DNA of 64,000 bases from a candidate division KSB1 bacterium. GTDB taxonomy: Bacteria > Electryoneota > RPQS01. A model generated the notes under the pieces. It saw nothing but the letters and a program-made list of their open reading frames with translations. It was not told the origin of the DNA and did no database searches. This document shows, piece after piece, positions 13,513 to 38,759 of the stretch. How positions within the stretch are numbered: position 1 is the first letter of the stretch; each line of letters opens with the position of its first letter. The DNA lies in the NCBI GenBank assembly GCA_016214895.1, contig JACRMR010000002.1, forward strand, positions 312,001 through 376,000, in the 5' to 3' direction. The translations under genes and the position numbers were made by a program.

Positions 13513-16500
13513 GTGAAGAGCGTTTGCAAGGTGAATAGCACGGGCCGCCCAGGATGGGGTTGGGCACTGCCGCTACTGGTCTTCGGCGCACTGCTGTGCC
13601 TGCCGCAAGGCTTGTCATGGTCTCTCCGGGCCGCGACAGATCCGTCGCAGCCTGGAGTTTCCCGTGAAGCAATGGTCGGCCGAATTGTTATTCTCAGTGG
13701 CCAATTCGACTTATCTGTCCTTCAGCCCGTCACCCGCCGAACAGAGCTGGCCGCACGGAATCGCGAGCTTCTGGTCGGGCTTGAACAAGTTGCAGACGCT
13801 GAACAGACCGGGCTGCTGACGAGGCTCGGCGAGCTCCATGCATCTGGCGAAGTATATACATACCAATCGTTTACAATACTGAATGCGGTGGCGGTTCTCG
13901 CGACCGAAGCTGTCTTCCGGGAGCTTGCCGATAGGCCCGAGGTGGCGTCGATCGAGGAGGACGCCGCGCTCGAGTTGATTGCTCCGCAAGAGGGACGGCG
14001 CGGAGAGCACGAGACGCTGGACTCGCTACATTTCGCCCTGAGGCTGATGCGGGTCCCGGATGTCTGGGCGATGGGCATTACCGGGGCAGGAGTGCTCGTC
14101 AGCCACTGCGATGCGGGAGTCAGCGGCACGCACCCGGCTCTGCAATCCAGTTGGCGCGGGAATTTCGGTTACCCGTGGCAGCAGTGCTGGCTTGACCTGG
14201 CAGGCTCATCGACGACGCCCGTGGCTTACAATACCCACGGAACTCAGACGATGAGCCTGATTTGCGGAATGGCGCCGGGTGACACGGTAGGCGTGGCGTG
14301 GGGAGCGCGCTGGATCTCCGGCGCGCTCAGTTTGTCCGGAGCCGAGACGGTCGCCTCGGCGATTGCCGCGTTCCAGTGGTTGGCCAACCCCGATGGAAAT
14401 GTAAATACGTTTGACGATGTTCCGCGCGTTTGTTCCAATTCGTGGGGAATTGTGCCGGGCTCGATTCCGGCATGTTATGACGTCTTGAATGCCGCTATTG
14501 ACAATCTCGAAGCCGCCGGGGTCGCCGTCGTGTTCGCCGCCGGAAATGAGAATCCGGTGTCCGGAATCCGGATTCCAGCCGACCGGGCCAGCAACATGAC
14601 CGACGGGTTTGCCGTCGGGGCATGGGACTACGCAACGGGTGACGTCTGGGCGCAATCGAGCCGCGGACCCGTGGTGTGTTCGGGAGATCCCGCCCTGAGA
14701 ATCAAACCCGAAGTGGTGGCGCCGGGCGTAAACGTGCGCTGCGCCGGCAGTGGGTCGAGTTACGGCTACGCGACCGGGACCTCGTACAGCGTCGCATATT
14801 CGGCGGGCGTGTTGGCGCTGATGGCTGAGGCAAATCCGGGCCTCGATCCGGATTCGCTGAAGGAGATCCTCCTGTACTCCGCGGTCGATCAAGGTGCAAA
14901 CGGAAATGACAACAACAGCGGATACGGGTTGATTGATGCCCTGGCCGCCGTGCAGGGAGCGATCTACGGAGTCGGTTGGGTGGCCGGCACCGTGACCGAC
15001 GATTGGGGTGAACCGGTCCCGGCGACCTTCACGATTCTGGGTTATCCGCAGCAATTCGTGACGGATGCCTATGGTTATTTCTGTTTCCCGATGCCGGCTC
15101 AGATTCCGCTCACTTGGCAGATCGTCCTTCCGTCGTTCAATGAATTTGAGGCGACGACCGTGTTCTTGCCGGGTGACACGCTGTGGGCGGATGTGGTTCT
15201 GCAACCCAGCAACAATGGCGTGCTGAGCGGAACCGTGATCGACTGCGGAGGACTGCCGGCCGTGGGGTGCACCGTCGAATTGGTGAATCAGCCGCTGCAG
15301 CCGGTGACGACCAACCTGGCGGGGCGATTCCAATTCGGGTTGCCCGCCGGCGTGTATGACGTCACGGCCCGCAACGGATTTTGCGCGGACGCGCTGGTGC
15401 CCGCGGTCCAAGTGATTCCCGGCGGCATTGTGGATATTGAGGTGGTGCTGCCATTCAATCCATCGCACATGTGCGGTCCGCCGGACAGCTTCGGCTATAT
15501 TCCGTGCGACTCGTATGACATGGGCGGCCCGGAGTATCGCTGGATCGAGTGCGCTCCGATCGCCGGCGGACGCGGCGTGGTGCACAATCTTCAGGATGAC
15601 GGTTGCGTGCAAGTCCTGCTGCCGTTTCCGATTACCTACTACGGAATCACGCGAGATCGGCTGTACGTCCATGGCAACGGCTTCGCGCATCTGAACGGTA
15701 CGACGATGGCGGCATATATCAACACGAATCTGCCGACCACGTTGGGACCGGCCATGTTCGGATTGTGGGATGACTTCAGCGACGTTTACGGCGGCGATAT
15801 CTGCTCGTGGTTCGACGCCGGACTGGGGCGGTTCATCGTCGAGTTCTCGCATGTCCCGCGCTATGATTCGCAGGATCAGTTTGCCACGTTTCAAATTCAT
15901 GTGCTGAACCCGGAAGTTTATCCGACAACGACCGGAAACTCGATCATCGAGTATTTTTATGACGCCGTGGATGTCCCGGAGTCCGCGACCGTCGGCATCG
16001 ACTTGTCCGGCGGTTCCAACAGCTACTCGCAATACGGAGCGAACGGAGTCTATCCGGCGCATGCCACGCCGATCGAAAGCGGTCTCGCGGTGCGGATGAC
16101 TCCCGGTGCAGCCGTGGCGGGGTTGGCACAGTTGAGCGTGAGCAATGCACCGCTGGTGGTCGATTTGCCGTCGGGCCAGGCCATGGACACCGCGCTGGTG
16201 TTGGTCAATTCGGGTACGCTGCCGGTTTCCTATGCGGTCGCGGTACCGGGGGATTCGGTGGCCGGGAGCTATGTAGTCAGCGACTCGCGCGCCGGAGGCC
16301 CTCCGTACTCGTTCACCGACATCTCGAGCATTGGGGCGAATCTGGCCGTGGTCGCCGATGATTCGATCTACTTCCCGTATGTACTGCCTTGGCACTTCAA
16401 ACTGTACGACCGGTGTTTCGACCGGGTGGGGATTTGCACGAACGGATTTCTGACGTTTACCTCAGCGATGGCGGAGTATATCAACCAGCCGTTGAGCCTG

Positions 16501-17325
16501 CAGAAAGATCCTTACTATATGCTGGCGCCGTACTGGCGTGATCTGAACTTCCCCAGCGGCGATCAGGGGCGGATCTATTCCTATTCTGACACCGCGAATG
16601 ATCGCGTGATCGTGCAGTACCAGAATGTGCGCTGGTGGGAGTCCACCAACCGGCAGACGTTCCAGATTGTGCTTTGGCATGACGGTCGGATCGACTTCGC
16701 GTACGGCACGTTGAACGGGCCGGTGAATCAGTGCACGGTGGGACTGAAAGGCCGGAATACGGCGCAAATCGCGCAGTTGGCGTACAACTCCACGTTCCTG
16801 ACCAACAACTGCCTGTTGCGCTTTACGCCGCCGACGCCGAGTGGAGTTGCCTTTGCCGAGGTGCGCGATCTCCGGATCGGAGTCCTTCCCGCCGGCGGCA
16901 GCGTCAGTGTGCCGATCCGGCTGACCAATAACACGCTTGGCTTTGGCGCGCTGGACTGCGGTGTGACCGTGCGTTGCTCGGAACCCGACCGAGAATTCTG
17001 GTCGCCAAGCGTTGTTGTGCAGGCGGCCCCGAGCACCATTGCGGCGGCGCTCGTGGCGAGGGCCGGCCTCAGCGGATTGACGCTAAATTGGGCGCGCTTG
17101 AACACGCCGTATTATTGCATCTATAGCGGGACATTGGACGATAGTGTCTTAACGACGCTTGTCGCCACGGTTGCCGACACGTTCTTCGCCATAACGACAC
17201 TGCCATCCGCGCGGCAGCAATTCGAAGTACGCATGTGCGATGGCCCGCCGGTCGCGGGCGGGCCGAGGCTGCCGGGGATCCCAGATGCCATTGTGTCGAA
17301 AGGGGTTGAGGTCGGGCGGAAGTAG
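13513..17325 (+). CDS. Large secreted subtilisin-like (S8) protease with C-terminal beta modules
   Basis: The 1,270-residue product starts at GTG 13513 and has a hydrophobic signal segment (about residues 16-40) and a propeptide-like region (to about 160). The S8 domain has Asp200 (SHCDAG), His242 (NTHGT) and Ser424 (GTS), plus the oxyanion region AAGNEN. The Ser loop is GTSYSVAYSAG, unlike the usual GTSMAxPHVAG. After it come two carboxypeptidase-regulatory-like domains (about 490-640), then two nidogen-like beta-sandwich modules (about 660-860 and 920-1110) and a Fn3-like end. No T9SS-type C-terminal tag is obvious. It heads an exoprotein block with another S8 protease and an M14 peptidase. 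Confidence 0.9.
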   Translation: MKSVCKVNSTGRPGWGWALPLLVFGALLCLPQGLSWSLRAATDPSQPGVSREAMVGRIVILSGQFDLSVLQPVTRRTELAARNRELLVGLEQVADAEQTGLLTRLGELHASGEVYTYQSFTILNAVAVLATEAVFRELADRPEVASIEEDAALELIAPQEGRRGEHETLDSLHFALRLMRVPDVWAMGITGAGVLVSHCDAGVSGTHPALQSSWRGNFGYPWQQCWLDLAGSSTTPVAYNTHGTQTMSLICGMAPGDTVGVAWGARWISGALSLSGAETVASAIAAFQWLANPDGNVNTFDDVPRVCSNSWGIVPGSIPACYDVLNAAIDNLEAAGVAVVFAAGNENPVSGIRIPADRASNMTDGFAVGAWDYATGDVWAQSSRGPVVCSGDPALRIKPEVVAPGVNVRCAGSGSSYGYATGTSYSVAYSAGVLALMAEANPGLDPDSLKEILLYSAVDQGANGNDNNSGYGLIDALAAVQGAIYGVGWVAGTVTDDWGEPVPATFTILGYPQQFVTDAYGYFCFPMPAQIPLTWQIVLPSFNEFEATTVFLPGDTLWADVVLQPSNNGVLSGTVIDCGGLPAVGCTVELVNQPLQPVTTNLAGRFQFGLPAGVYDVTARNGFCADALVPAVQVIPGGIVDIEVVLPFNPSHMCGPPDSFGYIPCDSYDMGGPEYRWIECAPIAGGRGVVHNLQDDGCVQVLLPFPITYYGITRDRLYVHGNGFAHLNGTTMAAYINTNLPTTLGPAMFGLWDDFSDVYGGDICSWFDAGLGRFIVEFSHVPRYDSQDQFATFQIHVLNPEVYPTTTGNSIIEYFYDAVDVPESATVGIDLSGGSNSYSQYGANGVYPAHATPIESGLAVRMTPGAAVAGLAQLSVSNAPLVVDLPSGQAMDTALVLVNSGTLPVSYAVAVPGDSVAGSYVVSDSRAGGPPYSFTDISSIGANLAVVADDSIYFPYVLPWHFKLYDRCFDRVGICTNGFLTFTSAMAEYINQPLSLQKDPYYMLAPYWRDLNFPSGDQGRIYSYSDTANDRVIVQYQNVRWWESTNRQTFQIVLWHDGRIDFAYGTLNGPVNQCTVGLKGRNTAQIAQLAYNSTFLTNNCLLRFTPPTPSGVAFAEVRDLRIGVLPAGGSVSVPIRLTNNTLGFGALDCGVTVRCSEPDREFWSPSVVVQAAPSTIAAALVARAGLSGLTLNWARLNTPYYCIYSGTLDDSVLTTLVATVADTFFAITTLPSARQQFEVRMCDGPPVAGGPRLPGIPDAIVSKGVEVGRK

Positions 17326-17395
17326 GCGGGGAAGAGTAGCTGCGCGAAGCGCGCATCCCCCCCGGCCCCCCACAGGATGTGGGGGGAGTGCCGAC
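17325..17395. repeat. 71-bp direct repeat, copy A, with hairpin
   Basis: This 71-bp unit begins at the last base of the preceding stop codon and recurs at 17577-17647, exactly 252 bp away, with roughly 90 % identity. It contains a C-rich run and a perfect hairpin CCCCCCACA-GGA-TGTGGGGGG (17366-17386), identical in both copies. The hairpin may stop transcription of the upstream protease gene, but no T-run follows. Confidence 0.8.
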
Positions 17396-17505
17396 CTTCC
17401 GATTCCGGGCGGCGGGCGGGCGGACGGCTCGGCGAAGTGCAGCCGGGCGACGCCGTTGGCACCCACAGGTTTGGGTTCAGCGGTTGACGAAACCGTGATG
17501 CTGAC

Positions 17506-17536
17506 AATTCCGGCAGGGAAGGAATCCCTGCTCGGC
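17506..17536. repeat. Dispersed hairpin repeat, copy 2
   Basis: The element AATTCCGGCAGGGA - loop - TCCCTGCTCGGC (17506-17536) is identical over 31 bp to the copy at 37554-37584. Both copies are followed by GAAGATCTCC with one or two inserted bases. The stem GCAGGGA/TCCCTGC differs from the GCGGGG/CCCCGC stem of copies at 2357 and 60965 by paired changes. Confidence 0.8.
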
Positions 17537-17576
17537 AGAAGATCTCCGTTTCCGGCTGCGGGGGGACGGACGGCTC

Positions 17577-17647
17577 GGCGGGGAAGAGCAGATGCGCGCA
17601 GACGCGCACCCCCCCGGCCCCCCACAGGATGTGGGGGGAGTGCCGAC
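17577..17647. repeat. 71-bp direct repeat, copy B, with hairpin
   Basis: Second copy of the 71-bp unit of 17325-17395, with the same 9-bp stem hairpin at 17618-17638. The left 30 bases carry the few differences and the hairpin half is identical. Confidence 0.8.
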
Positions 17648-17749
17648 ACTCCGGGCGCGCGAGGGTGCGCGCCCCGGCGAAAGATTTTGAGTAAACTGAG
17701 ATAGGACTTTGACCACTTCACTGGTTGGAAATGCACAGAGGACAAGACG

Positions 17750-20311
17750 ATGAACTTGCGTAGAACTTGGATCTGGCTGGTTGGACTATTTTGCATATTG
17801 CAGAGCGTGAGTGTCGCCCTTGCGGATGTGAACAAGCTCGCGGTGGACTTGAGCGATGCGTTCGAGCTGACGCCGGGCGCGAAACAGTCGATGATTGTGT
17901 ATTTGGCGGACCGGGTGGACGTGGCCGCGCTGGATGCGGCGTTGTGCGCACAGCACCGCCCGCGCGTCGAGCACCATCGAATTGTCGTCAGCGAACTGCA
18001 GCGGACGGCGGAACGCAGTCAGGGACCCGTGCGGGACGTCTTGAATGAAATGCAGGCGGCGGGGGAGGTTGACGGATACAAGGCATTCTGGATTGTCAAC
18101 GCGTTTGTGGTTTATGGGAGCGAGCAAGCGGCACAGGTGTTGACTGATCGCAGTGACGTGGACTATGTGGAACTGAACTTTGAAGTCGAGTTGATCGATC
18201 CGATCCGCGGTGAACCGCGGGAGTTGCTCGACAGCGATGCCAATACGCCGCCGATCGGAATCCGGGCCCTGAACGCTCCGCGAGTGTGGTACGAATTGGG
18301 CGTGACGGGCGCGGGTGCGCTGGTCGCGAATTGTGACACCGGAGTCGAAGGTGTGCATCCGGCGTTGAGCGGCCGCTGGCGCGGGAATTTCGCGCCGGCC
18401 GCGCAGTGCTGGCGTGCACCGGTCTCCGGGTCATCCACACCGGTGGACAATGATCAGCACGGCACGCATGTCATGGGAACGATTTGCGGCGCCACGAACG
18501 GTGGAACGGGCGACACGACGGGTGTGGCGCCGGGCGCGCTGTGGATCGCCGACGATGCGATCGGCGGCGGAACGGGAAGCGTATTCGATAACAATGTGAT
18601 CGACGCTTATCAGTGGATGGCCGATCCGGACGGCAACATCAATACCGTCAACGATGTGCCGGACGTCTGTCAAAACAGTTGGGGAGTGAACGGCAGCTTT
18701 TCCGGCTACTCGGATTGTGACAACCGCTGGAATGCGGCGATACAAGGCTTGGAAGCGGCGACGTGCGTGGTGACGTTCTCGGCGGGCAATGAAGGGCCGA
18801 GTGCCGCTTCTCACCGCAGCCCGGCGAACGTGGCCATGGACAGCGTGACGTTCTTCTCGATCGGCGCGGCGGACCTGACGAGCGACACGCTCCAGCCCTA
18901 TACAATGGCTAGTTTCTCCTCGCGCGGACCGTCCGATTGCAACGGGTCGATCAAACCGGAAGTGATCGCGCCGGGCGTGAGCGTGTATTCTTCGATTCCG
19001 GGCAGCACGTACTCCAGCGCGTTCAGCGGCACGTCGATGGCCGGGCCGCACGTGGCGGGTATTGTGGGACTTATGAGATCCGCGAATCCGGACGTCGATG
19101 TGCGGACGATTAAGTCGATCATCATGCGCACCGCACATGACCAGGACGCGGCGGGAAAAGATAATACGTCGGGCTGGGGGTTTGTCGATGCCTACGCGGC
19201 GGTGTTGCAAGTCATTTCCGGATACGGCCGGATCGCCGGCGTCATTCGTGACGAGAGCACGCTGAATCCGTTGCAGGCTCAGGTCGAAATCGTGGGCGGT
19301 GCGCAGTTGACGAACTCCAACGGCAGCGGCGCCTACGTGCTGGTCGTGCCGGGGGATTCGACCTACACCGTGCGTTATTCGCTTTACGGCTATGTATCGC
19401 AGGACGTGCAGCTGACCGTTGCCGCCAATGATACGACGGTGCACGATGTGCTGTTGCATCCGCGGCCGGTGGTGTACTTGTTGAACGAGAACTTCGATTC
19501 CGGCGCGCCGGGCTGGTCACACAGCGCGAGTGCCGGCTGGAGTGACCAGTGGCACGTCTCCACGGAGCGCGCGCAGAGCGCACCGAATTCGTACAAGTGC
19601 GGTGACCCGGGAACGGGAACGTACGGGGTGCGCGATGATGCACTCTTGGTCTCGCCGGTGATCCCGGCGCTGCCCGCGGAGGCGCGGTTGAGATTCTCGT
19701 ATCAGATCGAATCGGAGCTGTCGGGCGCGTATCCGGATTCGGCTTATGACGGCGGAGTGCTGGAACTCTCGATGAACGGCGGTGCGTTCGCGGCACTCGC
19801 GCCAGTGGGCGGTTACCCGAAGACCTTCCGGATTCTCGCGGGCGGCGGTAATCCGGTGACGGGACCGCTGGCCGGGCGTCCGTGCTGGGCGGGAAGCCAG
19901 ACCACGTGGAGAATCGTGGAGGTCGATTTGAGCGCGTACGTTGACCGGGATGTTCAGCTTCGTTGGAGATTCGGTTCTGATGCGGGAACCGGATTGGAAG
20001 GATGGTATGTCGATGACGTGGTCGTGTCGGCGTTTGGCCCGGAGACACTGGCGCCGGTGGCCAATCTCGTGGTGTCCGTTTCCGGCAACGATCTGAGACT
20101 GTTTTGGGAGAACGCGGGGAGCGCGGCGTATCGCATTTACAGCGACGTGAACTTGGACGGCGGGTACTTGACGTTCGTGGATCAAACCGCGGACACGACC
20201 TACACAGTGGTAAACGGCTGGAGCGCTCAGAATGAGTTGTTCTACATCGTGCGGTCGTGGAACGGAGTGAATCTGGGACCGCTGCCGCGCGGCGGCGTGC
20301 TCGCACGATGA
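17750..20311 (+). CDS. Secreted subtilisin-like (S8) protease
   Basis: The 853-residue protein has a signal peptide (MNLRRTWIWLVGLFCILQSVSVALA), a propeptide-like region (to about 165) and an S8 catalytic domain with Asp196 (NCDTG), His237 (DQHGTHV) and Ser429 (GTSMAGPHVAG), plus SAGNEG. These are fully canonical, as in bacillopeptidase F-like enzymes. After the protease are a carboxypeptidase-regulatory-like domain (about 500-575), an M6/MAM-like jelly-roll domain (about 580-765, ending GLEGWYVDDVVV) and a Fn3-like domain. It likely degrades extracellular protein. The next gene, an M14 peptidase, starts 57 bp later. Confidence 0.94.
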   Translation: MNLRRTWIWLVGLFCILQSVSVALADVNKLAVDLSDAFELTPGAKQSMIVYLADRVDVAALDAALCAQHRPRVEHHRIVVSELQRTAERSQGPVRDVLNEMQAAGEVDGYKAFWIVNAFVVYGSEQAAQVLTDRSDVDYVELNFEVELIDPIRGEPRELLDSDANTPPIGIRALNAPRVWYELGVTGAGALVANCDTGVEGVHPALSGRWRGNFAPAAQCWRAPVSGSSTPVDNDQHGTHVMGTICGATNGGTGDTTGVAPGALWIADDAIGGGTGSVFDNNVIDAYQWMADPDGNINTVNDVPDVCQNSWGVNGSFSGYSDCDNRWNAAIQGLEAATCVVTFSAGNEGPSAASHRSPANVAMDSVTFFSIGAADLTSDTLQPYTMASFSSRGPSDCNGSIKPEVIAPGVSVYSSIPGSTYSSAFSGTSMAGPHVAGIVGLMRSANPDVDVRTIKSIIMRTAHDQDAAGKDNTSGWGFVDAYAAVLQVISGYGRIAGVIRDESTLNPLQAQVEIVGGAQLTNSNGSGAYVLVVPGDSTYTVRYSLYGYVSQDVQLTVAANDTTVHDVLLHPRPVVYLLNENFDSGAPGWSHSASAGWSDQWHVSTERAQSAPNSYKCGDPGTGTYGVRDDALLVSPVIPALPAEARLRFSYQIESELSGAYPDSAYDGGVLELSMNGGAFAALAPVGGYPKTFRILAGGGNPVTGPLAGRPCWAGSQTTWRIVEVDLSAYVDRDVQLRWRFGSDAGTGLEGWYVDDVVVSAFGPETLAPVANLVVSVSGNDLRLFWENAGSAAYRIYSDVNLDGGYLTFVDQTADTTYTVVNGWSAQNELFYIVRSWNGVNLGPLPRGGVLAR

Positions 20312-20367
20312 CGGCACCACTGCGCAGCATGCGCAGATCACGGCGGAGAATTCTTACAGGCATACCC

Positions 20368-23300
20368 ATGAAGCTCGTTTGTACCATCGCGCTGGCGCTG
20401 GCGTGCATGACCTCGGTGTTCGCCGAGATACAGGGTCCGGCCGACGTGCGGCATCATTCGTTGATTCGCGTCTGGGGCAAGACCCCGGCGCACGAGAAGG
20501 CGATTTTCAAGAACGTGGGGCTCGATTTCATGCCGGGGCCGCAGCCGGGGAACGTGCAGATCGCGGCGTTCCCGGAGGACCTGACGTGGCTTGCCGAGCA
20601 CGGCTATAACTGGGAGTTGATTCACACCGATCTCGAGGAGTTCTATGTCCGGCGGGCGCGGGATGAAGGCAATCTCGACCTCATGGGCGGCTACAGGACC
20701 TACGCCGAGATCGTCACGTTTCTGAATACGCTGCACGCGACGTATCCAACGATTACGACCGCGCCCATGGACATCGGGCGGTCGCTGGGGGATTCCGTAC
20801 TGTGGGCGATGAAGATCAGCGACAATCCGGACGTGGATGAGAACGAGCCGGAGGTGTTCTACAACTCGCTGATTCACGCGCGGGAGCCGGCGGCGATGGA
20901 GGCCGTGCTGCTGTTCATGCAGAATCTCTGTCAGAACTACACCAATAACGTACAGCCGTGGCGGGACATGGTGGAGACGCGCGAGCTGTGGTTCGTGCCG
21001 TGCGTCAACCCGGACGGGTACGCCTACAATCAGAGCACGAACCCGAACGGCGGCGGAATGTGGCGCAAGAACCGCCGGAACAACGGGGACGGTTCTTACG
21101 GGATCGACCTCAACCGCAACTGGTCGTACCTGTGGGGGTACGATAACGTCGGTTCGTCGCCGACGCCGAATTCCGAGACCTACCGCGGTCCGTCACCGGC
21201 CTCGGAGCCGGAGACGCAAGTGATGTCTTCGTTCTTCAATGAGCGCAATTTCATCATCGCGATCAACAATCACACCTACTCGAATCTGTTGTTGAAGCCG
21301 TGGGGTACCAGCACGTATCAGGGCGGGTACACACCGGAAAATGCCACGTACGACGTGATCATCGATTCGATGCAGTATTTCATCCAGCAGAGCAGCGGCG
21401 AAGTGTTCGCGACCGGAACGGCCTGGGAGCTGCTGTACAATACGAACGGTGACTGCAATGACTGGTGCTACGGGGACATCTCCCAGCGCGCCAGAGTCTT
21501 CGGCGTGACGCCCGAGATCGGGACCAGCAGCGACGGGTTCTGGCCCGCGCCGAGCCGAATCCCCACCTTGACGACGGAGATGCAGACTGCTTACCTGTTT
21601 GTGGCGCGGCTTGCCGGCAGTCTGACCCCGCCGGATCAATGGATCAAGAAGACGACCCACCAGCAGACCGAACTGGGTGGCAACGGCAACGCAGTGGTCG
21701 ATCCGGGCGAGCAATTCAGCCTTTCGGTAACCCTGAAGAATGAAGGCGCGCTGGACATTGACGGACTGGTCGGTACGTTATCAACGGCCGATCCGAACGT
21801 CACCGTGCTCACCAACTCGTCCACGTGGCCGACGCTGACTCCGGCGCAATCCAGTACGGGTGCCACCCTGTTTGTGATTCAAGTGAGTGGCGACGCGCCC
21901 AGTTCGTACGGGCTGACCTTTGACCTCACGCTGTCGGCCAGCACCGGTCTCGATACCGTTGTCAATGTCGGCGCGGTGATCGGTACTCCCGTGTTTGTGG
22001 ACGACATGGAAGGCGGTACGAACGGCTGGACGACGGAGGGCACGGGCACACTTTGGCATCTCTCGACGCGACGCGCGGAATCGCCCTCGCATTCGTGGTA
22101 CAGCGGCAACGAGGGCACCGGGCTCTACGACGACAACATGAATGCGAGTCTGGTCAGCCCCGCGGTCATCTTGAGCAACGGCTCCATGCTCAACTTCTGG
22201 CATTACTACAGCCTCGAAACCGATTATGACTACGGCTTCGTCGAGATCAACGCGGGCAACGGCTGGGAGGTGATCGGCGGGCCGTACAACGGATCGTCCG
22301 GTTGGACCTATGAGTCAATATCGTTGGTCGCATACCCGGCAGGCGCGACTGCGCAGATTCGGTTCCGGATGTACACCGATGCCGGTGTCACGCAGGAAGG
22401 CTGGTACGTTGATGACGTTCAGTTAGCGCCGCCGGGAAACATCATGGTCTCGCCACTGGCGCTGGATTTCGGCCTTTTGCCCGGCGAGATCGAAACGCAA
22501 CCCGTCGTGGTACAGAATTCGGGCTTCAATGCAATCAGCTACAACACGGGCTTCGGCAGCGGAGCCACGCTGGATACGAGCGCGGCCGATGCGTACGGCT
22601 ATCGGTGGCAAGATGCGAACGGCCCGTGCGGGCCGCCGTTTGAATGGTTGAACCTCTCCGCCGCGGGAGTGCAACTCACATTTGCGACGGGTGACCAGGT
22701 GCTGGGACCCTACGTGTTGCCGTTTGACTTCCCATTCTACGGCGAGATGTACAACCGGTTCTGGGTTTCGGCGAACGGCTGGATCAGTTTCGCCGACAGC
22801 GCGACAGCATTGGCGGTAAACGTCCCGTTGCCGGGCAGCACGGCTCCGGCGGCGGCAATTTTCGGCTGGTGGGATGATCTGAAACCACAATTAGCGGGAA
22901 CGAATGTCCGCTACTGGAACAACGGAGTCGATTCCGCCGCGGTGTTGTATGAAAACGTGCGGGCCGGGACGGCGCCGAATCAAGGGACGTACAACTTCGA
23001 GATCCTGTTGACTCCCGGCGGCGAGTCCAAGGTGATCTTTGGCAGCATGGGGACTATTCGCCTGAACAGCGCGACGGTCGGAATTCAGAATGCCGCCAAG
23101 ACGGTCGGCCTCATGGCCATCCACAATAATGCCACACCGGTGGGAGACAATCAGGTGCGGCGGTTTGCGATGGGTCCACGTTACGTCGATGTGTTACCCG
23201 TGGCGGGAACGCTGGCGGGCGGAGAAAGTGATACGCTCTACGTGCGTGTGGTCGGCGATCTGCTTTGCTCTGATCCGAGCCTGACTGCATTGCAGGTCCG

Positions 23301-23580
23301 CAGCAACGATCCGGATTCGCCGGTCATCACGATTGCCATCACTGCCGGCGGTGCGGCCGAGCCGGGGGTGCCGATCAACGTGACTGCACTGCGGATCGGG
23401 GATGACATCGAACTGCGGTGGGTGGCGAGCGCGGGGGCAACAGGATACCGCATCGAACGGGCGACAGAATTGGATGGCGTCTATACCCCGATCGATACCG
23501 TGATCGGCACGACGTACACCGATCTCGGCGCGGCGATCGGCGCGCAGCAGGCGTTCTATCACGTGATTGCAACCAACTGA
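20368..23580 (+). CDS. Secreted zinc carboxypeptidase (M14) with accessory modules
   Basis: The ATG at 20368 begins a signal peptide (MKLVCTIALALACMTSVFA); an upstream in-frame ATG at 20257 lies inside the previous gene. The M14 domain has zinc ligands His170 and Glu173 (HAREPAAME), His302 (NNHTYS) and the catalytic Glu383 (TPEIGTSSDGFWP), with NRNWSYLWG between. The remainder of the 1,070 residues holds a CARDB-like stretch, an M6/MAM-like domain (WYVDDVQL), a nidogen-like module also present in the S8 protein at 13513, and a final Fn3-like domain. It would trim C-terminal residues from peptides released by the neighbouring proteases. Confidence 0.94.
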   Translation: MKLVCTIALALACMTSVFAEIQGPADVRHHSLIRVWGKTPAHEKAIFKNVGLDFMPGPQPGNVQIAAFPEDLTWLAEHGYNWELIHTDLEEFYVRRARDEGNLDLMGGYRTYAEIVTFLNTLHATYPTITTAPMDIGRSLGDSVLWAMKISDNPDVDENEPEVFYNSLIHAREPAAMEAVLLFMQNLCQNYTNNVQPWRDMVETRELWFVPCVNPDGYAYNQSTNPNGGGMWRKNRRNNGDGSYGIDLNRNWSYLWGYDNVGSSPTPNSETYRGPSPASEPETQVMSSFFNERNFIIAINNHTYSNLLLKPWGTSTYQGGYTPENATYDVIIDSMQYFIQQSSGEVFATGTAWELLYNTNGDCNDWCYGDISQRARVFGVTPEIGTSSDGFWPAPSRIPTLTTEMQTAYLFVARLAGSLTPPDQWIKKTTHQQTELGGNGNAVVDPGEQFSLSVTLKNEGALDIDGLVGTLSTADPNVTVLTNSSTWPTLTPAQSSTGATLFVIQVSGDAPSSYGLTFDLTLSASTGLDTVVNVGAVIGTPVFVDDMEGGTNGWTTEGTGTLWHLSTRRAESPSHSWYSGNEGTGLYDDNMNASLVSPAVILSNGSMLNFWHYYSLETDYDYGFVEINAGNGWEVIGGPYNGSSGWTYESISLVAYPAGATAQIRFRMYTDAGVTQEGWYVDDVQLAPPGNIMVSPLALDFGLLPGEIETQPVVVQNSGFNAISYNTGFGSGATLDTSAADAYGYRWQDANGPCGPPFEWLNLSAAGVQLTFATGDQVLGPYVLPFDFPFYGEMYNRFWVSANGWISFADSATALAVNVPLPGSTAPAAAIFGWWDDLKPQLAGTNVRYWNNGVDSAAVLYENVRAGTAPNQGTYNFEILLTPGGESKVIFGSMGTIRLNSATVGIQNAAKTVGLMAIHNNATPVGDNQVRRFAMGPRYVDVLPVAGTLAGGESDTLYVRVVGDLLCSDPSLTALQVRSNDPDSPVITIAITAGGAAEPGVPINVTALRIGDDIELRWVASAGATGYRIERATELDGVYTPIDTVIGTTYTDLGAAIGAQQAFYHVIATN

Positions 23581-23606
23581 GGTTGGTGTTGGGTTGGATG
23601 GCGCGT

Positions 23607-23639
23607 AGCAGAGGCACGGTGGTTGACCGTGCCTCTGCT
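23607..23639 (+). terminator. Rho-independent terminator after the M14 gene
   Basis: A perfect 14-bp stem (AGCAGAGGCACGGT / ACCGTGCCTCTGCT) with a GGTTG loop is followed by TGCTTGTGG. It lies 27 bp after the stop codon. Confidence 0.75.
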
Positions 23640-23818
23640 TGCTTGTGGCGCAGAGTACCCGGGTGCCGGGTCCGGGGGCGGCACCCCGATCGGTGGCGAC
23701 GGGGATATTGCGCGGGGAACGGGATTGGTCTCGCCCACCGAGGTGGGCGCTGCGGGGCGATGTTCCGGGTTCGCCCGGCGAGGCGGACGGTACGGGTTGG
23801 TGCATTGGATAAACAAAC

Positions 23819-25519
23819 ATGAAGGCAATGACACGAATTCTATGGGTGGCGGTGGCACTGGCGGGCAGTGCGGCTTCGCTGTACGCAGTGTCCGCGCGTC
23901 CGACGTGGTCGAAGAATTCCATGGTCAGCAGTGCGGACGGGATGGCAACCGAGGTCGGAGTGGCGGTTTTGCGGGACGGCGGCAATGCGATCGATGCGGC
24001 GGTGGCGACGGCACTGGCGCTCGGCGTAACTGAAAATTATGCGAGCGGTATCGGCGGCGGGTGCTTCATTCTGCTGCATACGGCTGACGGCAGGGACATC
24101 GCTATTGACGGAAGAGAGGTGGCACCGGCTGCCGCGACGCGCCTGATGTTTGTGCCGGCCGACACGAGCGCCGAAAGCGACCTCTCCGAGACGGGGCCTT
24201 TGGCGGCAGGCGTGCCGGGCGAATTGGCGGCCCTGAACTATGTGCTTACACAGTTCGGAACGAAGTCGTTGTCGGAACTGCTCGAGCCGGCGATCGCCCT
24301 CGCGGACACCGGATTCATCGCGAATGGTCGGTACGAACGGAATCTCGGGACGCAGGTGGAGCGCATGCGGCGGTTCGATGCGACGAGGCGGATCTTTCTG
24401 ACCAACGAATCGACCGGAAAGAAGCTCGGCGAGCGAATTGTACAGACTGATTTGGCGCAAACACTTCGCCGGATTCAGACCGAAGGAGTGGACGCTTTTT
24501 ATCGCGGGGAGATCGCTTCCGCGATCGCGGACTATTGCGCCGCCTCCGGCGGAATCATCACCCGGGATGACCTGCGCGAATACGAGCCAAAGCGATTAGA
24601 CCCGGTCCGGGGCCGCTATCACGGTCTTGAGGTCGTCGCGATGCCTCCGCCAAGTTCCGGCGGGCTGCACGTCATTCAGATTCTAAACCTGTTGGAGCCG
24701 CTGCGGATCGACACGCTGGGCGCGGGTTCGGCGGCGGCGTACCATACGATTGCGGAGGCCTTCCAAATCGCCTTCGCCGATCGCGCTGAGTTTCTGGGCG
24801 ACCCGCGCTTTACCAAAGTACCCTCCGTTGGTTTGGCGAGCAAAGACTATGCGGAGCAGCGGCGGACCGAAATGCCATTCGCCAGACATGTGCACTTGAG
24901 TGGTCCGGGCAATCCGTGGGCCTTCGACAGTACGGCCGAAAAGCATACGACGCATCTCTGCGTCGTGGACAAGTTCGGCAATGCGGTTTCGCTGACCGCG
25001 ACGATCAACACCCCGTTCGGGAGCGCGGCGGTCGTGCCGGGGACGGGAATCCTTCTGAACAATCAAATGGATGATTTTGTGACGCGACCGGGGCGGCCAA
25101 ACTATTTTGGACTGGTGGGGAATGCCGCCAATGAGGTTGAGCCGGACAAGACGCCGCTGTCATCGATGGCGCCGACGCTGCTGTTGAAGAACGGAAAAGT
25201 GTTCATGGCCATCGGCAGTCAGGGCGGACCGCGGATCATTACGTCGGTCGTGATGGCGATTGTCAATGTGATCGACTACGGAATGCAGCTGCAAGCCGCC
25301 GTGGATGTACCGCGAATCCATCAGCAATGGCTGCCCGACAAGCTGTTCGTCGAGCCGGAAGTGCCCCGCGATGTGCTCGTTGGACTGACCAACCGGGGGC
25401 ATGTTGTGGATAACTCAAGTCGTTGGTCCACCGTCACTGCCATCATGGCTGACACAAGTCGTGGCGGCTGGTGGGGTGCCGCGGACAACCGGGCGGAAGG
25501 GCTGGCGAGAGGTGAATAG
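23819..25519 (+). CDS. ggt: Gamma-glutamyltransferase
   Basis: An Ntn-hydrolase that cleaves gamma-glutamyl bonds such as those in glutathione and self-cleaves into two subunits. The 566-residue protein has a signal-like N-terminus (MTRILWVAVALAGSAASLYA), MVSSADGMATEVGVAVLRDGGNAIDAAVATA, the large-subunit Arg region DGREVAPAAA, the processing site EKHTTHLCVVD (nucleophile Thr377), and the small-subunit PLSSMAPTLL and GSQGGPRI motifs. It is probably periplasmic and continues the peptide-utilisation theme of the three upstream peptidases, though a terminator separates it from them. Confidence 0.95.
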   Translation: MKAMTRILWVAVALAGSAASLYAVSARPTWSKNSMVSSADGMATEVGVAVLRDGGNAIDAAVATALALGVTENYASGIGGGCFILLHTADGRDIAIDGREVAPAAATRLMFVPADTSAESDLSETGPLAAGVPGELAALNYVLTQFGTKSLSELLEPAIALADTGFIANGRYERNLGTQVERMRRFDATRRIFLTNESTGKKLGERIVQTDLAQTLRRIQTEGVDAFYRGEIASAIADYCAASGGIITRDDLREYEPKRLDPVRGRYHGLEVVAMPPPSSGGLHVIQILNLLEPLRIDTLGAGSAAAYHTIAEAFQIAFADRAEFLGDPRFTKVPSVGLASKDYAEQRRTEMPFARHVHLSGPGNPWAFDSTAEKHTTHLCVVDKFGNAVSLTATINTPFGSAAVVPGTGILLNNQMDDFVTRPGRPNYFGLVGNAANEVEPDKTPLSSMAPTLLLKNGKVFMAIGSQGGPRIITSVVMAIVNVIDYGMQLQAAVDVPRIHQQWLPDKLFVEPEVPRDVLVGLTNRGHVVDNSSRWSTVTAIMADTSRGGWWGAADNRAEGLARGE

Positions 25520-33977: not shown

Positions 33978-34602
33978 AGCGGTGTTCTTTGACTTTGACG
34001 GAGTGTTGATCGACTCGATGCCGGCCCATGTGCGGGCCTGGAAGCAGGTCACCGCCGAGCTGGGGATCGCGGTTGACGGACGGTATTTTGAGTTGCACGA
34101 AGGCGAGAAGCCCGAGTACACCGTGAAGCAGCTGCTGGCGGAGAAAGCGGTCGAACTGTCCGAGGACCAACAGCGCGAATTGATCGAACGAAAGCGACGG
34201 ATTTACCGCGCCGATGCTCCGACCGGGTTGATTCCGAACGCGCGACGGCTGATCGACGCGCTGCGGCTGCGCGGGATCGAGTGCGATATCGTGACCGGGT
34301 CGATCCGCCGAAATCTGGAGGCGACCTTGAGTCGGAGTGAAATGGACTTGTTCACGCGGATTACGACGGCAGATGATTACGACCGGGGAAAGCCGTTTCC
34401 CGATCCGTACTTGACGGGCTGGAAACGCAGCGGCGTGGCGCAGGCGGAGTGTCTGGTGCTGGAAAATGCGCCGCTCGGAATCCGCTCCGCGCGTGCCGCG
34501 GGGTTGAAGACCATTGCAATTGTTACGACGCTTCCCGCGGAGGAGCTGCGGGAGGCCCACCACATCATCACCTCTCACGAGGAGCTACTGAACTATGTCT
34601 GA
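33970..34602 (+). CDS. HAD-family phosphatase/phosphomutase-like
   Basis: A 210-residue HAD hydrolase of the beta-phosphoglucomutase/phosphatase subfamily. Motif I is FFDFDGVLIDSMPAH (nucleophile and acid Asp), motif II the Thr of DIVTGSIRR, motif III Lys in DRGKPFPDPY, and motif IV LVLENAPLGIRSARAAG. The cap inserts after motif I. It overlaps the SDR gene by 8 nt and the fbp gene by 8 nt, so it is in a tight operon. Substrate unknown; a sugar or glycolate phosphate is plausible. Confidence 0.9.
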   Translation: MAKAVFFDFDGVLIDSMPAHVRAWKQVTAELGIAVDGRYFELHEGEKPEYTVKQLLAEKAVELSEDQQRELIERKRRIYRADAPTGLIPNARRLIDALRLRGIECDIVTGSIRRNLEATLSRSEMDLFTRITTADDYDRGKPFPDPYLTGWKRSGVAQAECLVLENAPLGIRSARAAGLKTIAIVTTLPAEELREAHHIITSHEELLNYV

Positions 34603-35641
34603 CGTTAAAGCCGCGACGCTGAATTCGCAGACGCCAAACGTCATCACGATCGAACGGCATATTGTCGATCAGGAGCGGGAGAATCCTGAAGCGACGGGCC
34701 AACTGTCACGGCTGCTGTACCAGATCGCCTTTTCGGCTAAGGTCATCAGCCGCGAGGTCCGCCGCGCGGGCTTGCTGAATATTCTGGGATCGACCGGCAG
34801 GACGAATGTGCAGAACGAAGTCGTGCAGGTGCTCGACGAGATCGCGCATCGCACGGTCGAAGAGGCATTTGATCACTCCGGTGTGCTTTGTTGCATGACT
34901 TCCGAGGAGGTCGAGGACTTGATCCCGATTCCGCCGGAATTCGATCTGGGCAGATACACGCTGGCGTTTGACCCGCTGGACGGCTCATCAAATATTGATG
35001 CGAATGTGAATATCGGAACCATCTTCTCCGTGCACCGGAAGGTCTCGGCGGGGCGGGAGGGACGCGTCGAGGACCTGTTGCAGAAGGGGAAGAAGCAGGT
35101 CGTCGCGGGTTACGTAATGTATGGCTCGTCCACGATGATGGTGTACACGACCGGACGCGGAGTCTATGGCTTTACGCTGGATCCGACGGTCGGCGAATTC
35201 CTGCTCTCGCACCCGGACATCAAAGTGCCGCCGCGGGGCAGTCAATTCAGTTGCAATATGGGCAACTATAAGTACTGGAGCGAAGGCGTTCGCAAGTACG
35301 TTGATGACCTCACGCTGATCGACAAGGACCGGCGCCGGCCGTATTCCCTACGATATATCGGCTCGCTGGTCGCGGACATTCATCGGACGCTAATTTATGG
35401 CGGCATCTTCATGTATCCGATGGACCTGAAGGATCCGAAAAAGCCGTCGGGCAAGCTGCGGCTGCTCTACGAGGCGGCACCGATGGCGATGATCATGGAG
35501 CAGGCGGGCGGCGGGGCCACTGACGGCGTGAATCCGATTACGGAGATCAAGCCGACGGAATTGCACCAGCGCGTGCCGCTGATTATCGGTTCCAAAGACG
35601 AGGTCGACGAGGCCGCGGAGTACATCAGGAAGTACGGGTAA
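34595..35641 (+). CDS. fbp: Fructose-1,6-bisphosphatase class I
   Basis: Removes phosphate 1 from fructose-1,6-bisphosphate in gluconeogenesis. The 348-residue protein has the metal site YTLAFDPLDGSSNIDANVNIGTIFS, the KYW..NY substrate region NYKYWSEG, RYIGSLVADIHRTL and GKLRLLYEAAPMAMIMEQAGG. All are class I hallmarks. It is last in the plus-strand run and is followed by a terminator. Confidence 0.97.
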   Translation: MSDVKAATLNSQTPNVITIERHIVDQERENPEATGQLSRLLYQIAFSAKVISREVRRAGLLNILGSTGRTNVQNEVVQVLDEIAHRTVEEAFDHSGVLCCMTSEEVEDLIPIPPEFDLGRYTLAFDPLDGSSNIDANVNIGTIFSVHRKVSAGREGRVEDLLQKGKKQVVAGYVMYGSSTMMVYTTGRGVYGFTLDPTVGEFLLSHPDIKVPPRGSQFSCNMGNYKYWSEGVRKYVDDLTLIDKDRRRPYSLRYIGSLVADIHRTLIYGGIFMYPMDLKDPKKPSGKLRLLYEAAPMAMIMEQAGGGATDGVNPITEIKPTELHQRVPLIIGSKDEVDEAAEYIRKYG

Positions 35642-35779: not shown

Positions 35780-37285
35780 TTAGCGTTGCGACTTCCAAGC
35801 GCGCCACTCACGGACCTCGTATGTTACGACCAGTTCGCTTTGAGGCTCGACGACGACCGGGAACTCGATTGTGTGGTCTGAAGTCTGGCGGTATTCAGCG
35901 GACGCGGCGAGAATCTTCCACCCCTGGTTGAACCGTTCTTGAATTACCATGTCAACCGCAGCTTCCCGGTCATTTGTTAGCCGGACTTCCCAACTGTCGT
36001 CGTGGCGCGAACCCAACCCCTTTTCGGATCGAAGTTGGTTGCGAACGGCGCTAAGACCTTCGGCACTCCCGACGCGGATGCGGAGTGGATCGTTCTTCGC
36101 AAGGGCAGCGGTTTGGTACTCGCTCACGTACTCGGAGACGCCGCCTTCGCGCGTGCGATAGATACTAACTGTACCGGCGGGCAGCGGCATTCCCAGACCG
36201 GCACTGTCCGTGTTGACCGTCGAGACATAGACTCCGATTCGCGAAGGGTTGTTCCAGTAGGTGTATTCGTAGTTTGTGCGTGTCTTGATCGGGCTGCTCT
36301 GAATCAGCGTGAATTCCTGCTCGACGCCTTCAGGCAGCGATGATTCAACGGGCAGTGTGAAGAGCTTCAGACCGAACAGCTCCTCAACAAAGGCACTGGG
36401 CGGAGCGAGCGGATCACGATAGGCCTGACCGTCAACCGAGACGAGAACTTCTTCGTCTCTGCCTCCCCGGACGTGTATCGCGCCCGCCGGGTCCGTTTTG
36501 AAGCCCGGCTGCCGGGACAACAAACCCTTAACAGTTTCGGTCGCTCGAGTCGCGAGCTGATCGGAGGAGATGCGGAGCCGTTTGGGCGGTGATTGCAGTT
36601 GTCCCGAAACGAGTGTGATCCGGACGTGATCGAAGGCGCGCCCGGTTGCATTCCAGATGCGAGCGGAACCACTGAATATCGCGACAGAGTCGCTTGCCGT
36701 GAGCTCCAGCGTGTAGCCGGCGCTCCAATCCAATCCTTGCAGCGAGTATTTCGCCTCGACGTCATGCGGACCAGCTTCCGCAGCGTTAAGCTTGCAGGTC
36801 AGTACGGGTTCAATCTGGTAGTCGAGCGGCTTTGTGGCATAGCGATATTCCACAACTTGAGTCTGGCGAAGCGTGCGAATCATGCCACCCGGCTGCTCAA
36901 TCACGAATCGCGCGGAGGAGTCGGATTCGTTGCGCGATTCCGGCTGGCCGATGAGCAAGCCGCTGAAGGAGGAACCGTCGCGCAGTACGAACTCGACTTG
37001 TTTGCCCAGGCTTTGACCGAGCAGCAGGTCATCCGTCACCCTGTGGAACTGGAACATCTGCTCCGAGGCCGCGATGCCGTGCCCGGTGATGCGAACGGGT
37101 TCGTCAAGAATGAGTCGCGAGAGATTCTTGAAGCTCACTTGATTATCGCCGGCCGTCAGATCGAACGAACGGACATCGCGCACAACCGCATAGTTCTGAT
37201 CGTAGATCGTAATCAGAAAATGATCGGCGGCAGAAGCCATGAGAGTGCTCGCGAGGAGCAGGACTAGGCAGGCAGCAGCGTTCAT
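35780..37285 (-). CDS. DUF4139 protein with an internal TonB-plug-like segment
   Basis: The 501-residue protein has a signal peptide (MNAAACLVLLLASTLMASA) and a DUF4139-type C-terminus (LTNDREAAVDMVIQERF, TIEFPVVVEPQSELVVTYEVREW) that completes an N-terminal half starting ITIYDQNYAVVRDVRSFDL. Between them, residues about 245-295 read SDQLATRATETVKGLLSRQPG, then AIHVRGGRDEEVLVSVDGQAYRDPL. This is the plug-domain signature of TonB-dependent receptors (LxxxPGV, HVRGGR, EV..VDGxxxxDPL). No beta-barrel follows. The ATG has GGAGGG 7 nt upstream. Function unknown; the DUF4139 call is firm in type, the plug likeness is my reading. Confidence 0.75.
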   Translation of the reverse strand: MNAAACLVLLLASTLMASAADHFLITIYDQNYAVVRDVRSFDLTAGDNQVSFKNLSRLILDEPVRITGHGIAASEQMFQFHRVTDDLLLGQSLGKQVEFVLRDGSSFSGLLIGQPESRNESDSSARFVIEQPGGMIRTLRQTQVVEYRYATKPLDYQIEPVLTCKLNAAEAGPHDVEAKYSLQGLDWSAGYTLELTASDSVAIFSGSARIWNATGRAFDHVRITLVSGQLQSPPKRLRISSDQLATRATETVKGLLSRQPGFKTDPAGAIHVRGGRDEEVLVSVDGQAYRDPLAPPSAFVEELFGLKLFTLPVESSLPEGVEQEFTLIQSSPIKTRTNYEYTYWNNPSRIGVYVSTVNTDSAGLGMPLPAGTVSIYRTREGGVSEYVSEYQTAALAKNDPLRIRVGSAEGLSAVRNQLRSEKGLGSRHDDSWEVRLTNDREAAVDMVIQERFNQGWKILAASAEYRQTSDHTIEFPVVVEPQSELVVTYEVREWRAWKSQR

Positions 37286-37478: not shown

Positions 37479-37553
37479 AGGGAGAATTCTCCCTTGGAAA
37501 GGGGGACGGGTGCTCTCTTGATTGGCTATGAGCGTGGGATCGAGGTAGAGCGC

Positions 37554-37584
37554 AATTCCGGCAGGGAAGGAATCCCTGCTCGGC
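37554..37584. repeat. Dispersed hairpin repeat, copy identical to 17506
   Basis: AATTCCGGCAGGGA - loop - TCCCTGCTCGGC, 31 bp identical to 17506-17536, followed by GAAGATCTCCC. It lies 20 bp beyond the 3' end of the truncated subtilisin gene. Confidence 0.8.
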
Positions 37585-37604
37585 GAAGATCTCCCGAGTC
37601 CCCC

Positions 37605-38759
37605 CTAACCCCCCCCTCTGCTCGCGGAGAGGGACACGACCTGGAAATTATCTTCCCAATTCAGGGCGGTGTTTAGTGCGAATTCTTGAGCATCACGTCC
37701 ATTATGTGGCCCAGACCGGTGCCCTGCAGAATAGTTTGTGACTACGTACTGTTTCCCGAGGTCGTGGGCTTTGGCGCGAAGATAAAGAAGGAGCCGAGCG
37801 AATGCGTCCGCAGAAACTCCGGCATCCGGAGAATACTTCACGCCAATGACCGGAGCTTCGGACGCAATCCCGGAAAGGTCCGCAAACGTCCCTGTGTTTC
37901 GTCCCGCGATGATAGATGCCATCGAGGTCCCATGACCAAAAGGGTCTTGCAATGCGGGAGGTGGGTTCTGCATTGCCTGATTGATCGCATCCTCATCATA
38001 TTCCCATCCAAGTTCCAAGTTATTGAACGGCGGCAGGAGATTCGTACTCGAACTCGTGTAATCTAGGATCGCCCTGAACAGCGTACTGTGCTCGGTGCTA
38101 CCGTCACGAAGTGCTTGATGCTGGATGTCAAATCCAGTGTCGATGATGCCGAAGATTACGTTTCCTTGTGTTGGCCACGGCACAGGGTACTGTTCATCCG
38201 CTTCTCCATCGTGGATATTCGGACGGCTCTGATCAAGCTGCGGCGTATCCTTCTTAATGACCGGATAGACAATCCTCAGTAGTCGCGTCGGCAACGAGTC
38301 CCACGGCAAGTCAATCGGCCAGTCCCCCATGTACATATAACATGGTTGGGTCCACGTCTGCAGTGAATCTATCCAATCCTTTGTCTCAAATGGACCAAAA
38401 ATGGTGAAACGGAATCCAAAAGACGTCAGTAGCGACGTATCCGCGGGCGACTCCACGTATATGTTTCCACTGACCCACCTTATCCCGTCGTTGCCCGGCG
38501 CTTTGCGGATTCCTTCGTAGTTCGCCGGTGGCGGTCCAACGGATTTACGCGCCTCGCTGCCAAAATAGGTCGGATCGCGGGGAAGATCAACCTGTGTTTT
38601 CTTCACTGCAATCGAGTCCACGGCCTGCGGAGGCAGGGATTCGGGGTCGCCGCCGTGCGGACCAGCCAGCACCATCGTCAGTAGAAACAACGTCAGTGTG
38701 AGAACGCCTAATCCCACGACCTGACCTTTCCCGCGCAAACGCCCTCGACTGTTTCTCAT
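37605..38759 (-). pseudogene. Truncated subtilisin-like (S8) protease
   Basis: The 384-residue frame has a signal-like N-terminus (GLGVLTLTLFLLTMVLAG), the S8 Asp motif IFGIIDTGFDIQHQAL and the His motif DPFGHGTSMASIIAG. It stops before the catalytic Ser region: after NTALNWEDNFQVVS the reading passes into LSASRGGG and a stop, where VAAGNE and later GTSMA would be expected. The junction near 37645 coincides with a hairpin CCCTCT..AGAGGG and a C-run. It keeps a good start (AGGTAGG before the ATG), so the truncation seems recent. The catalytic triad is incomplete, so protease activity is not expected. Confidence 0.8.

Follow-up and report, generated by a model that had tools for sequence, protein, structure and literature searches.

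A DUF4140/DUF4139 protein with an inserted half plug of a TonB-dependent receptor in a candidate division KSB1 bacterium

Results

Organization of the locus

We analyzed a window of 64,000 nucleotides from a candidate division KSB1 genome (assembly GCA_016214895.1, contig JACRMR010000002.1, positions 312,001–376,000). A single open frame on the reverse strand (35780..37285) encodes a DUF4140/DUF4139 protein of 501 residues, delineated by its open reading frame, by Pfam and by an AlphaFold model in which the frame is mostly above pLDDT 90. All of its parts lie on the reverse strand. The protein starts with a probable Sec signal peptide (res. 1–20, MNAAACLVLLLASTLMASAA; 37226..37285), read by eye and modeled as a helix at residues 2–15, and we infer that it is exported. 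The N-terminal part of the DUF4140/DUF4139 frame (res. 21–236; 36578..37225), aligned to plug-less relatives, leads into an insert (res. 237–293; 36407..36577) that stands in place of the usual 25–29-residue linker and is, very probably by capture, the N-terminal half of the plug of a TonB receptor. The C-terminal part of the DUF4139 frame (res. 294–501; 35783..36406), assigned from Pfam, alignments and AlphaFold, completes the protein.

Three plug elements can be discerned in the insert. The plug helix and PGF motif (res. 241–262; 36500..36565) align with Cir and BtuB, and residues 241–255 are helical both in the full model and in a single-sequence model. The HVRGGR motif (res. 271–276; 36458..36475) is also supported by the Cir/BtuB alignment and is conserved in the receptors of the phylum. 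The VDG motif (res. 284–286; 36428..36436) is the final conserved plug motif ahead of the breakpoint.

A first-pass annotation of the window had read a plug start flanked on both sides by DUF4139-type sequence, with no barrel. The flanks were confirmed by a DUF4139 match (PF13598) at residues 177–452, with 40.7 bits against a cut-off of 31.8. The Plug family (PF07715) is matched at residues 238–288, below its cut-off of 23.9, with 15.1 bits in the whole protein and 19.3 bits for the isolated piece; the match covers model positions 11–67 of 107. The DUF4140 match is under its cut-off, as is that of the model for the mucoidy inhibitor MuiA, TIGR02231 (28.3 bits, cut-off 112.6). No barrel family was matched by Pfam in the 501-residue protein, and DUF4139 sequence resumes after residue 296. 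By inspection, the protein has no recognizable TonB box: the stretch before residue 237 is DUF4139 sequence, and the region upstream of the donor receptor's plug is absent from the capture in the alignment.

The flanking genes are unrelated and encode a complete fructose-1,6-bisphosphatase (34595–35641) and a subtilase (37605–38759). A short dispersed repeat (37545–37605) borders the subtilase ORF at its 3′ end; parts of this repeat have matches at ~75 other or like sites across the genome. The catalytic-domain match of this subtilase goes no further than position 135 of the 288-position model, which makes truncation next to the repeat probable. Elsewhere in the window, a cluster of secreted hydrolases on the forward strand (13513–25519) comprises two complete subtilases, a zinc carboxypeptidase and a gamma-glutamyltranspeptidase; each complete subtilase is followed by a regulatory-like domain, which is above cut-off in the first only.

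The insert occupies the position of a short linker

A resident DUF4139 paralog of 451 residues lacks the plug and matches residues 4–230 and 296–495 of the 501-residue protein, skipping the plug segment. The same division is seen in relatives from the phylum, whose DUF4139 proteins match the protein as two pieces, while the plug segment matches separate receptors, mostly of 1,200–1,300 residues. The linker measures 68 residues here versus 25–29 in all 30 of the aligned DUF4139 relatives, and 27–41 residues in 80 further DUF4139 proteins from other bacterial and archaeal genomes; a plug is absent from the linker of those 30 relatives and of the 80 other proteins. The segment is foreign to DUF4139, against the refuting condition set by the first-pass annotation that it be scored within that family. 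The proposal that a plug-like loop might be a feature of the family does not hold family-wide, since most members have a short linker. In the alignments, this linker is otherwise low in complexity and variable in length.

No ortholog of the half-plug DUF4139 gene was found, and the gene is known in one genome only, so selection on the insert can be gauged only against its donor. A scan of named genomes with the 501-residue sequence alone returned no matches, and a scan with an alignment succeeded. A search of viral contigs found no relatives of the insert. We drew no conclusions from an alignment of receptor plugs together with DUF4139 proteins, because its linker region was misaligned. Across 16 genomes (its own and 15 others), the Plug model gave ~125 matches, all but two of which reach model position 88 or beyond. 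The two that stop at positions 67–69 are in the 501-residue protein and in a MuiA protein of genome G376; hence, in this set, the half plugs that lie outside receptors all belong to DUF4139 proteins.

Donor lineage, age and constraint of the half plug

The genome also encodes a TonB-dependent receptor of 1254 residues (G000:C2, 12.8–16.6 kb; L005, 3815–7579), which carries a CarbopepD_reg_2 domain, a Plug domain (36.5 bits, above cut-off) and a β-barrel domain. By BLAST, the segment is 54–57% identical to the plug of this receptor over ~70 residues (E 1e-19 to 3e-21). The identity is 54% for residues 231–300 and 61% for residues 237–293 (35 of 57 residues); set against receptors at large, the resident one stands at 57–60% and the others are lower. 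Segment trees pair the insert with the resident receptor (support 92/91, and 97/87 in a second set), and the two share the string VDGQAYRDPL, where related receptors have forms such as VDGVDFRDPL. The segment tree rests on 57 columns and is by itself modest evidence, with which the shared residues and identities agree. BLAST and tree thus bear out the plug start, in an insert (36407–36577) slightly wider than the interval first noted (36404–36560). The resident receptor belongs to the family and lineage that donated the half plug but is complete, with regulatory domain, whole plug and β-barrel.

Several DxNxNGxxDxxE-like repeats between the plug and the barrel of this receptor resemble calcium-binding loops, and a beta-helix lipoprotein follows the receptor. 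Most genomes of the phylum encode receptors whose plug is related, and the majority of these are comparable in length.

At the DNA level, insert and receptor are 63% identical, with 42% identity at third positions. Only 16 of the 35 identical residues use the same codon (dN 0.32, dS ~1.9); saturation at synonymous sites is accompanied by conservation of the protein sequence. The third-position G+C of the insert (0.67) equals that of the host gene, and the receptor has 0.80. The DNA identity, the third-position divergence, the dS and the host-like G+C point to an old capture and not to an assembly join, in line with the earlier view that the continuous reading frame is not a sequencing join.

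We simulated an unconstrained insert at the observed third-position identity. The observed protein identity was found in <1% of runs if at least one-fifth of the divergence was placed on the insert branch; with one-tenth, P was 0.38 for the whole piece and 0.02 for the core. Neutral evolution of the insert is therefore rejected unless about one-tenth or less of the divergence lies on its branch. In the tree, the insert branch is longer, not shorter, than that of the receptor. The insert keeps 16 of the 16 plug positions that reach 80% conservation among receptors of the phylum. The DUF4139 frame retains 24 of 47 positions conserved at 95% and 48 of 100 conserved at 80%; it is still modeled with high confidence and, in a tree of the frame, sits on a very long branch. 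Because the half plug is better kept than the frame and the frame's branch is so long, the gene looks, from its sequence, like a diverged second DUF4139 copy with the half plug as its best-kept part.

Structure models and comparison with known plugs

AlphaFold was run on the 501-residue protein with 77 DUF4139 relatives as the alignment. The frame, mostly above pLDDT 90, is interrupted by an uncertain excursion at residues ~230–297, in which residues 257–296 fall below 50. A single-sequence model of the insert (pLDDT 66) has one helix and three strands, and a structural search with this lone model matched no solved plug. The models speak neither for nor against a plug fold, as the insert is not folded with confidence either in the protein or alone. 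We infer a folded half plug, for an insert that is of low confidence in the full model. With the whole model as query, the structural search returned short matches to Sm-like domains but nothing useful at global scale. These matches, to Sm, Lsm and Hfq proteins, have target TM scores of 0.56–0.80 over 60–75 residues; by order and strand pattern we place them at about residues 90–150, in the N-terminal half of the model. If the placement is true, an Sm-like barrel would lie within a secreted protein.

A profile of the segment aligns to residues 30–82 of Cir and 29–83 of BtuB, spanning the first plug helix to the VDG motif (PDB 2gsk, 1nqe, 2hdf). In BtuB and Cir, the plug sits inside its own barrel, whereas the captured half plug stands outside any barrel. 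Residue R273 corresponds, in the Cir/BtuB alignment, to the arginine that plugs conserve in their RG motif and, judged by motif, is presumably equivalent to R93 of FhuA. The conserved plug arginines of FhuA, R93 among them, are predicted to bond barrel glutamates (PMC11658791). Force spectroscopy divides the BtuB plug into two parts, of which ~50 residues past the Ton box, assigned to residues 23–73, unfold under TonB pull (PMC5413942). By alignment, the captured piece nearly coincides with this separable, force-labile half. The near match may explain both a piece that stands alone and the end point common to two captures.

Receptor modules in the same DUF4139 loop elsewhere

A DUF4139 search of 386 genomes led to a 715-residue frame with an enlarged loop in genome G376. 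Within the loop lie a regulatory domain and a plug that breaks off at model position 69. Complete versions, 47–100% identical, are present in nine genomes of that phylum and define a MuiA-type family (P0002) with the order DUF4140, CarboxypepD_reg and half plug, DUF4139. The likeness to the 501-residue protein extends to the loop, to the plug limits (model positions 11–69 versus 11–67) and to an own-lineage receptor source: in a tree, the inserted plug pieces group with that phylum's own receptors. Unlike the 501-residue protein, the family also carries the regulatory domain, has complete copies in nine genomes and shows plug decay, with plug motifs intact in most members and decayed in some (L182, L183, L195). 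In one genus (g344), MuiA and receptor pieces share 87.5% DNA identity over 128 bp versus at most 78% to other genera, pointing to a recent conversion or recapture in that genus. Insert–receptor DNA identity of MuiA genes is highest within a genus or genome (L178–L180, L201, L202), the best match of L178 being the receptor of its own genome, a pattern that suggests gene conversion between MuiA and receptor genes.

In a third phylum, 28 of 71 strong DUF4139 matches, by our own count, span at least 1,100 bases versus the usual ~930. We scanned 19 of these 28. DUF4139 and DUF4140 were found in every one, the regulatory domain in 17 and a plug in four (27–72 bits), including both proteins that lack the regulatory domain. 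SusC/RagA signature models score above cut-off in two of the SusC-type insertions, and most of those examined have a TonB-box-like motif, LxEVVVTG, behind the regulatory domain. The phylum bears SusC and is therefore probably Bacteroidota. Like the 501-residue protein, these SusC-type MuiA proteins (TIGR02231) have an N-terminal module of a receptor in this DUF4139 loop. They differ in being longer, with an N-terminal domain of their own and mostly with the regulatory domain and TonB-box-like motif; their plugs extend to the end of the model and have SusC-like donors, whereas the plug of the 501-residue protein stops at position 67.

In genome G065, the loop of a DUF4139 protein (L257) contains a regulatory domain together with EYGYVVDGLSDNQ, a stretch that may be a further decayed plug piece, from an additional lineage. 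No DUF4139 insert was found in the phylum of G345, in which ~60 genomes with DUF4139 were covered. An alignment of all insert kinds places each in the same DUF4139 loop, and the recognized domains in the examined insertions are all receptor N-terminal modules. Such modules (carboxypeptidase-regulatory domain, TonB box, plug) occupy this loop in at least two other phyla. The first-pass annotation had known of no such architecture, a statement that is wrong in substance. A search for homologs with the same join, which it had suggested, gave a divided answer, with no ortholog but with same-loop receptor insertions in other phyla. Domain combinations of receptor modules with DUF4139 appear in Pfam. 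Our literature search, in a limited collection, found no report describing receptor modules in the DUF4139 loop. The 501-residue protein is an independent, minimal case, a half plug without regulatory domain or TonB box; this bare half plug, of independent origin and in a short DUF4139 subfamily, was found in one genome only.

Discussion

The 501-residue protein very probably arose by capture of a piece of a receptor plug that was then retained for a long time. The initial proposal of an inserted and retained plug fragment is strongly supported by the donor family and lineage, the insertion site and the long persistence. In an ancestor of this genome, ~57 codons from a resident TonB-dependent receptor gene would have entered a second copy of the DUF4139 gene, in an exposed loop between two β-strands. 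The captured piece would run from the first plug helix through VDG, leaving behind the regulatory domain, the TonB box, the second half of the plug and the barrel. Purifying selection would then have kept the piece, as roughly half of the family-conserved positions disappeared from the DUF4139 frame; the original task presumably stays with the ordinary DUF4139 paralog.

Two readings of the junction itself were rejected on identity and codon evidence. A linker that converged by chance on plug-like motifs would suit a Pfam Plug match that alone is under its cut-off, but is hardly credible given 54–57% identity over ~70 residues to one receptor family at E ~1e-20, with lineage-specific shared residues. 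An assembly join or binning error has in its favor that the gene is known from a single draft assembly of 26 contigs; it is very improbable, as it would need two in-frame joins and would carry receptor DNA nearly unchanged, against the 63% identity, the saturated synonymous sites and a third-position G+C that matches the host gene and not the receptor.

What the half plug does is less certain. The protein is most likely a periplasmic plug mimic, whose β-frame would display the half plug; this would dock where the receptor normally takes its own plug, for instance on the barrel wall or on the other half plug, thereby placing the protein at the receptor or modulating the latter. Taken as a whole, from capture through retention to docking, we hold this account to be somewhat better than even, and the docking role taken alone, a matter of function, to be tentative. 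Against this account stand the single-sequence insert model that matched no solved plug, the missing TonB box, the fact that no receptor gene was seen adjoining, and the second-phylum plug part, which decays in some members as a passenger might. Captured modules also differ between phyla, so that one shared function is not forced. Indeed, the insert may be a tolerated passenger without a task of its own, in a permissive loop that repeatedly takes DNA from abundant receptor genes, its motifs kept only since changes would cause misfolding or aggregation. The low-complexity, length-variable loop, the strongly diverged frame of the 501-residue protein, and the 87.5% DNA identity within one genus versus at most 78% to other genera, which fits recurrent recombination or conversion, all speak for a passenger; the variation of the captured modules among phyla and their decay in some lineages, several second-phylum members included, keep it a serious rival that we consider quite possible, if short of probable. 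It accords poorly with an insert that is the best-conserved part of the protein (16/16) inside a relaxed frame, and with the restriction of recognized domains, in the insertions examined, to receptor N-terminal modules. A further alternative, that TonB pulls receptor modules in DUF4139 proteins and that the 501-residue protein is a reduced member of such an energy-coupled device, draws on the LxEVVVTG motif kept by most SusC-type insertions and on the two SusC/RagA signatures. The 501-residue protein has neither the upstream box region nor such a motif, and without a TonB box its half plug cannot be pulled by the known route, which makes this alternative improbable.

DUF4139 is widespread in bacteria and also found in archaea. 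Its literature is nearly nil; within the collection searched, mentions are few and none concerns function. That unrelated lineages place outer-membrane receptor modules in one DUF4139 loop is the first concrete hint of where the family works, and it hints at an unrecognized link between the DUF4139 and TonB-receptor families. As a long shot, DUF4139 proteins with receptor modules could be accessory parts of TonB-dependent transport, in which a displayed half plug, as a spare copy, reversibly replaces the subdomain that TonB unfolds and pulls, and so seals or gates the barrel while transport proceeds; if so, repeated capture into one loop would be selected convergence. The case is of a known kind, in that receptor modules in the DUF4139 loop exist in sequenced genomes, and the variant found here is the bare half plug. 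Lacking a TonB box and coinciding with the force-labile subdomain of the plug, this piece separates plug contact from energy coupling.
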